Part shown: in pieces, positions 19,818-20,708 of the stretch
How the letters are laid out: each line of letters starts with the position of its first letter
Numbering within the stretch: the stretch's first letter is position 1
Source: Cytophagales bacterium
GTDB lineage: Bacteria > Bacteroidota > Bacteroidia > Cytophagales > Cytophagaceae
Direction of reading: 5' to 3'
NCBI GenBank assembly: GCA_013297765.1
Contig: JAAFID010000018.1
Span: 1-32,906 of the forward strand
DNA: 32,906 nucleotides
Program-made: the position numbers and the translations under genes
Notes under the pieces: generated by a model
The model's database searches: none
What the model saw: only the letters and a program-made list of their open reading frames with translations
What the model was told of the DNA's origin: nothing

Positions 19818-19946
19818 TTAAAAAGGAACGTTAAACCCACCAGACCAAATCAATTGGGCAGAAAAGAAACTATGCTTGGCTCTTCCTTTATGATCTAAAT
19901 CTACATAGGTATTGTTGTAGTTGGCAAATGCTCCTTTAAAGCTACC
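19818..19946 (-). pseudogene. Cut-off C-terminus of the outer-membrane barrel gene
   Basis: Directly beyond the TAA at 19947-19949, the same minus-strand frame stays open for 42 codons (starting GSFKGAFANYNN, then VDLDHKGRAKHSFF, ending AQLIWSGGFNVPF) and stops at 19818-19820. The segment has alternating hydrophobic residues and ends in phenylalanine, like a final barrel strand. This indicates a single nonsense change in a once longer gene of 277 residues. A CAA to TAA change would explain it. Confidence 0.65.
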
Positions 19947-20651
19947 TTACACAAAAAGGTATTTAAAAAAATTGTATCTTATTGATGCACTGGCTACAAT
20001 GACATATCCTGAAATATGAAAAGGCCCATCGTTGCGACGGCCAAAAAGTCTAGAATCAGTTTTGGGAATAGGTACGCCAGCACCAGCTTTTGCAAATACA
20101 CTAAGCCAATGCATTCCATTTTTACTGTGCAAAATGTTCCATCTTTTTACCCCATTTATCATACAATAGTTTCCTCCATTGGTATGCTCGAAGCGTACAA
20201 AATTGATATCTACTAGAGTATCTAAATCATACTTTACATTATTTATAGTACCTTTTACACGCAGTGTTTGATTGTCGGGTAAAACGTATTTGATATGATC
20301 CCAACTGAATTCTATGCCCCAATCTCCTTTTTTGTTGAACATGTAGCCAAGGTTAAAAATATATTGGGGTACTGAAATAGATCGATGAAATAAATCGTCA
20401 TAATCTGGCTGATCTACAGCTTTAGCATTTTGTATTTCAAAATCATAATTGGCATTTTCATGATTTGTAAAATGAATAGTGCTATTGGTGTACCAATCTC
20501 TATGATAGCCCCATGTAACGTATATGCTACCTCTACCAGCTTTGTTTTGTGTAGGGCAGTTGCAGTTGTCTTGGGCAAAGGAAGTAGGTATAAAGCCTAG
20601 CATGAGTGCTGAAAAACAAAAGAGTAATCGAGATTGATTTTTAAAATTCAC
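19947..20651 (-). CDS. Outer-membrane beta-barrel protein, prematurely terminated
   Basis: 234 residues up to the first stop. A signal peptide (1-26, ending TSFA) is followed by a sequence of alternating beta-strands: GSIYVTWGYHRDWY, YIFNLGYMFNKKGDWGIEFSWDHIKYV and WLSVFAKAGAGVPIPKTDS. This is typical of small outer-membrane barrels of Bacteroidota. The reading frame ends at a TAA after KYLFV and then continues in frame for 42 more codons to a natural C-terminus ending in phenylalanine. As it stands, the product lacks its last strands and the C-terminal aromatic signal used by the BAM machinery, so it is probably non-functional unless the stop is read through or is an assembly error. A promoter-like element overlaps a dyad at 20664-20708. 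Ligand and function unknown. Confidence 0.78.
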   Translation of the reverse strand: MNFKNQSRLLFCFSALMLGFIPTSFAQDNCNCPTQNKAGRGSIYVTWGYHRDWYTNSTIHFTNHENANYDFEIQNAKAVDQPDYDDLFHRSISVPQYIFNLGYMFNKKGDWGIEFSWDHIKYVLPDNQTLRVKGTINNVKYDLDTLVDINFVRFEHTNGGNYCMINGVKRWNILHSKNGMHWLSVFAKAGAGVPIPKTDSRLFGRRNDGPFHISGYVIVASASIRYNFFKYLFV

Positions 20652-20663
20652 AGGCTAGAAGAA

Positions 20664-20708
20664 TCTACTTTTATGGATAGTATATTTACTATTATATACA
20701 AAAGTAGA
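20664..20708 (-). promoter_or_regulatory. Palindromic operator-like site overlapping a -7 element
   Basis: TACTTTTG on the minus strand (20699-20706) matches the -7 consensus. It lies in one arm of a 9-bp inverted repeat, TCTACTTTT (20664-20672) with AAAAGTAGA (20700-20708), which encloses a 6-bp dyad, ATAGTA (20677-20682) with TACTAT (20687-20692). The location, just before the barrel gene start at 20651, suggests a repressor site or leader hairpin. Confidence 0.4.

Follow-up and report, generated by a model that had tools for sequence, protein, structure and literature searches.

The barrel gene and its in-frame stop codon

The minus strand of the window, by which we mean the whole stretch of 32,906 nucleotides analysed here, contains an open reading frame at 20651-19947 that begins with a GTG at 20651, comprises 234 codons and terminates at a TAA (19949-19947). 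Past this codon the frame stays open for another 42 codons, up to a second TAA at 19820-19818. The minus-strand translation of 19818-20675 accordingly runs through NFFKYLFV into the first stop, continues as GSFKGAFANYNNTYVDLDHKGRAKHSFFSAQLIWSGGFNVPF and closes at the second one. The coordinates, the codon count and the terminal FNVPF given in a preliminary description of this locus were all correct on translating the window.

The 234-codon N-terminal part (19950..20651, minus strand) carries the GTG start, a putative Sec-type signal sequence, MNFKNQSRLLFCFSALMLGFIPTSFAQ, and all predicted strands of a β-barrel except the last two. The signal sequence was called by eye rather than with SignalP, and corresponds to helix 4-25 of the structural model. 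The in-frame TAA (19947..19949) occupies residue 235 of a read-through protein of ~277 residues. It is followed by the C-terminal tail of 42 codons (19821..19946), which is assigned the last two barrel strands and the end SGGFNVPF on the basis of a profile of the tail, the model and the β-signal pattern. The TAA at 19818..19820 lies at the usual C-terminus of the family, as judged from the translation and from the ends of the homologues. The gene frame contains no second stop or frameshift besides the TAA at 19949-19947, the tail is without a usable start codon of its own, and no paralogue of the gene was found in the same genome. At the other end of the gene (20649-20657), an in-frame TAG precedes the GTG start by two codons; the nearest relatives mostly have an ATG near this point, and the start may be a weakened one.

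Predicted structure of the read-through form

The read-through form was modelled from an alignment of 38 relatives, with a pLDDT of 88.4 and a pTM of 0.79. In the model the signal helix (4-25) leads into the barrel strands, of which the last two span residues 232-250 and 256-276. A signal sequence together with a closed antiparallel barrel is thus predicted, for the read-through form only. The stop falls on residue 235, at the beginning of the penultimate strand. According to the model, the product of the interrupted gene loses the last two strands nearly whole, along with the C-terminal β-signal-like motif.

The model resembles the transmembrane domain of OmpA (1qjp; Z 15.8, rmsd 2.8 over 135 residues) and OmpW (2f1v; Z 14.1, rmsd 3.5 over 175 residues), but sequence identity to either is only about 10%, which makes this a likeness of fold and not of membership. 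Neither Pfam nor NCBIfam gave a match for the window protein, and its relatives show scattered sub-threshold matches only; by profile match the protein does not belong to the OmpA or OmpW sequence families. A sequence search of the PDB with the barrel protein returned chance matches only.

The β-signal of the final strand engages BAM and follows the pattern polar-x-G-x-x-hydrophobic/aromatic-x-hydrophobic/aromatic (PMC10945584). The natural C-terminus, SGGFNVPF, fits this pattern, which was defined in E. coli and is applied to the present lineage by extension. The truncated C-terminus, NFFKYLFV, does not fit it, since the glycine is missing. Full loss of function is nevertheless not certain, because OmpC of E. 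coli has an internal signal that can partly substitute for the C-terminal one (PMC10945584).

Homologues at the stop site

Homologues were searched for in the 59 nearest whole genomes, in 390 genomes of the order and in the GTDB species collection. Those found are ~30-50% identical to the window protein, the nearest ones 38-50% over the N-terminal 234 codons, and none of the three sets contained a close relative clearly above 50% identity. No relative was found in viral contigs. Homologues from Cytophaga aurantiaca, Chryseolinea serpens, Sporocytophaga, Hymenobacter and Spirosoma share ~40-50% identity with the window protein over its whole length and have the same C-terminal strands; these members of the family are full length, whereas the window copy has an internal stop. 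The homologue loci suggest a Cytophagaceae-like lineage for the window.

After removal of duplicates, ~107 homologues remained, of which 105 were full length and two (L035 and L025) did not align to the C-terminus in one frame. L035 was excluded from the full-length set as it runs off its contig. L025 (2905-3764), from a Cyclobacteriaceae MAG (JAHBUB010000016.1), carries one in-frame TAG close to the N-terminus, directly behind WGYHRDQY, and its frame is otherwise intact; it represents either a second, independent one-stop break at another site in the family or an error. Where a relative had been marked as containing one TAG or TAA, this was, in the loci checked, the normal terminator and not an internal stop.

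In each of the 105 full-length homologues the frame passes this site and closes at the position of the second TAA in the window copy. The column of the window's stop holds Glu in 67 of them, Gln in 30, Asp in 3, Met in 2, Asn in 2 and Lys in 1. None has a stop there, which makes the stop unique to this genome within the set compared. We also looked for homologues ending at KYLFV, which the preliminary description had named as the observation that would speak against a break; every homologue with an intact contig reaches the family C-terminus. Together with the predicted structure, the 105 homologues support the description of a barrel gene interrupted by a single in-frame stop, whose product has lost its terminal strands. 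The proposal that the TAA arose from CAA is not established, as Glu outnumbers Gln in this column; judging from the alignment, CAA is a possible ancestral codon but not a favoured one.

The sequence beyond the stop

An open frame of 42 codons is weak evidence on its own, because 8% of the stop-to-stop intervals in the whole window are at least that long. A profile built from the tails of the relatives, searched against all six frames of the whole window, matched the 42 tail residues with 59 bits (E = 1.2e-17) and matched nothing else, while the best of 2000 shuffles reached 11 bits. By this measure of sequence likeness, the tail is real coding sequence of the family.

With leave-out profiles, the head scored 290 bits (family median 298) and the tail 59 bits (family median 63). 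Mean identity to the family fell from head to tail by less in the window (-0.027) than in the other members (-0.066, sd 0.028). Neither the identity to the family nor the leave-out scores revealed decay in the head or the tail. An undecayed head and tail are expected of a young stop, and equally of a base error.

Distribution and neighbourhood of the gene

The barrel gene is present in 10 of 19 family-level genomes. It was not found in a genus-mate (G001) whose leuA is 94% identical to that of the window and whose assembly is about 90% complete. This patchy presence and the absence from the genus-mate would fit a dispensable gene. Downstream of its leuA, the genus-mate has, in the place of the barrel gene, an unrelated lipoprotein-like gene with repeated TTSG units (L135:3518-4238).

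Near the window's relatives, the gene neighbourhood offered no functional clue. Of 80 homologue loci, 20 have a TsaE-like gene close by and 12 a PorX-like response regulator, both named by eye (e.g. L037:981-2986), and this neighbourhood recurs in other Bacteroidota lineages.

Decoding and the origin of the stop

With regard to decoding (ALTERNATIVES), TAA ends 22 of the 31 window ORFs taken, a count that includes the barrel ORF's own stop; leuA, purK and purE, with complete Pfam domains, are among them. A covariance search found 33 tRNA genes over the cut-off in the genome, to all of which ARAGORN assigned ordinary anticodons. None of the 33 has the anticodon UUA, although a low-scoring tRNA outside these candidates could be missed. 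Programmed read-through or recoding is unsupported on three grounds: none of the relatives has the stop, no UUA suppressor tRNA was found, and TAA is an ordinary terminator here. A phase-variable gene is likewise unsupported: the lesion is a point stop that needs no repeat slip, the frame continues undisturbed before and after it, and the nearby run of seven T is in frame and not the source of the stop. Of the four causes put forward in the preliminary description, recent loss of function and sequencing error thus stand, whereas stop read-through and phase-like variation find no support.

The reading we favour, and consider probable, is that a young or still segregating nonsense mutation has inactivated a dispensable barrel gene. 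The gene would encode an uncharacterised small outer-membrane β-barrel of OmpA/OmpW-like fold, present in many Cytophagales and other Bacteroidota. One nonsense substitution in this genome would cut translation short at residue 235 out of some 277, and the product, without its last two strands and the motif recognised by BAM, would most likely fail to close or insert and be degraded in the periplasm, amounting to a loss of function. Since the remaining frame shows no decay, the change appears to be a young one, or an allele that still segregates in the population. As in a pseudogene, the stop lies upstream of the usual C-terminus and homologous coding sequence continues past it; the relaxed selection or further lesions of an old pseudogene were found in neither the head nor the tail.

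The main rival, which we regard as the less likely account though a substantial one, is a sequencing or assembly error, in which case the gene would be intact in the cell and the TAA a wrong consensus base. The genome is a draft of 290 contigs and the only one of its species among those compared, and in a single draft a base error would look the same as a nonsense mutation. That there is exactly one lesion with no decay, that the stop occurs in no relative, and that sequencing errors have been named a main source of in-frame stops (PMC7918605) all agree with an error. Against it, the lesion is a substitution and not a homopolymer indel, no other broken gene stands out in the window, and the genes checked against Pfam look complete. 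On balance, the stop is probably biological.

Two further accounts keep the gene at work. A tolerated ochre codon might lower expression while low-level read-through still yields some full-length barrel, as the unimpaired tail would allow, and many bacterial in-frame stops do lie in genes still under purifying selection (PMC7918605). That survey required the same stop in at least two genomes, however, and here no relative has it; TAA is moreover the commonest terminator in the window, no tRNA with a UUA anticodon is among those found, and any young stop would also leave the tail unimpaired, which makes this account highly unlikely. We would hardly expect, either, that the 234-residue product is a functional shortened protein. 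Its head is well conserved, but no homologue ends at the site, the last two strands belong to the barrel in the model, and the new C-terminus has no glycine where the β-signal pattern (PMC10945584) calls for one. The truncated product is thus presumably non-functional.

Discussion

The interrupted gene resembles the single-nonsense pseudogenes and in-frame stops described by Belinky et al. 2021 (PMC7918605) in having one stop, homology on both sides of it and an otherwise intact sequence. It differs from that set, in which the same stop recurs in at least two genomes, in that its stop is known from one draft genome only. Whether the gene was broken recently or the sequence is in error, the case in the window is an ordinary one, and nothing in it points to special decoding.

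Its significance lies mainly in annotation, where the 234-aa ORF is best entered as a probable pseudogene, or else a possible base error, in a Bacteroidota barrel family that has no name. With at least 582 candidate loci in GTDB bacterial genomes, and with no Pfam or NCBIfam model found for it, this appears from its sequences to be a widespread outer-membrane family without a name. It is the family, more than the broken copy in the window, that deserves to be named and given a function.
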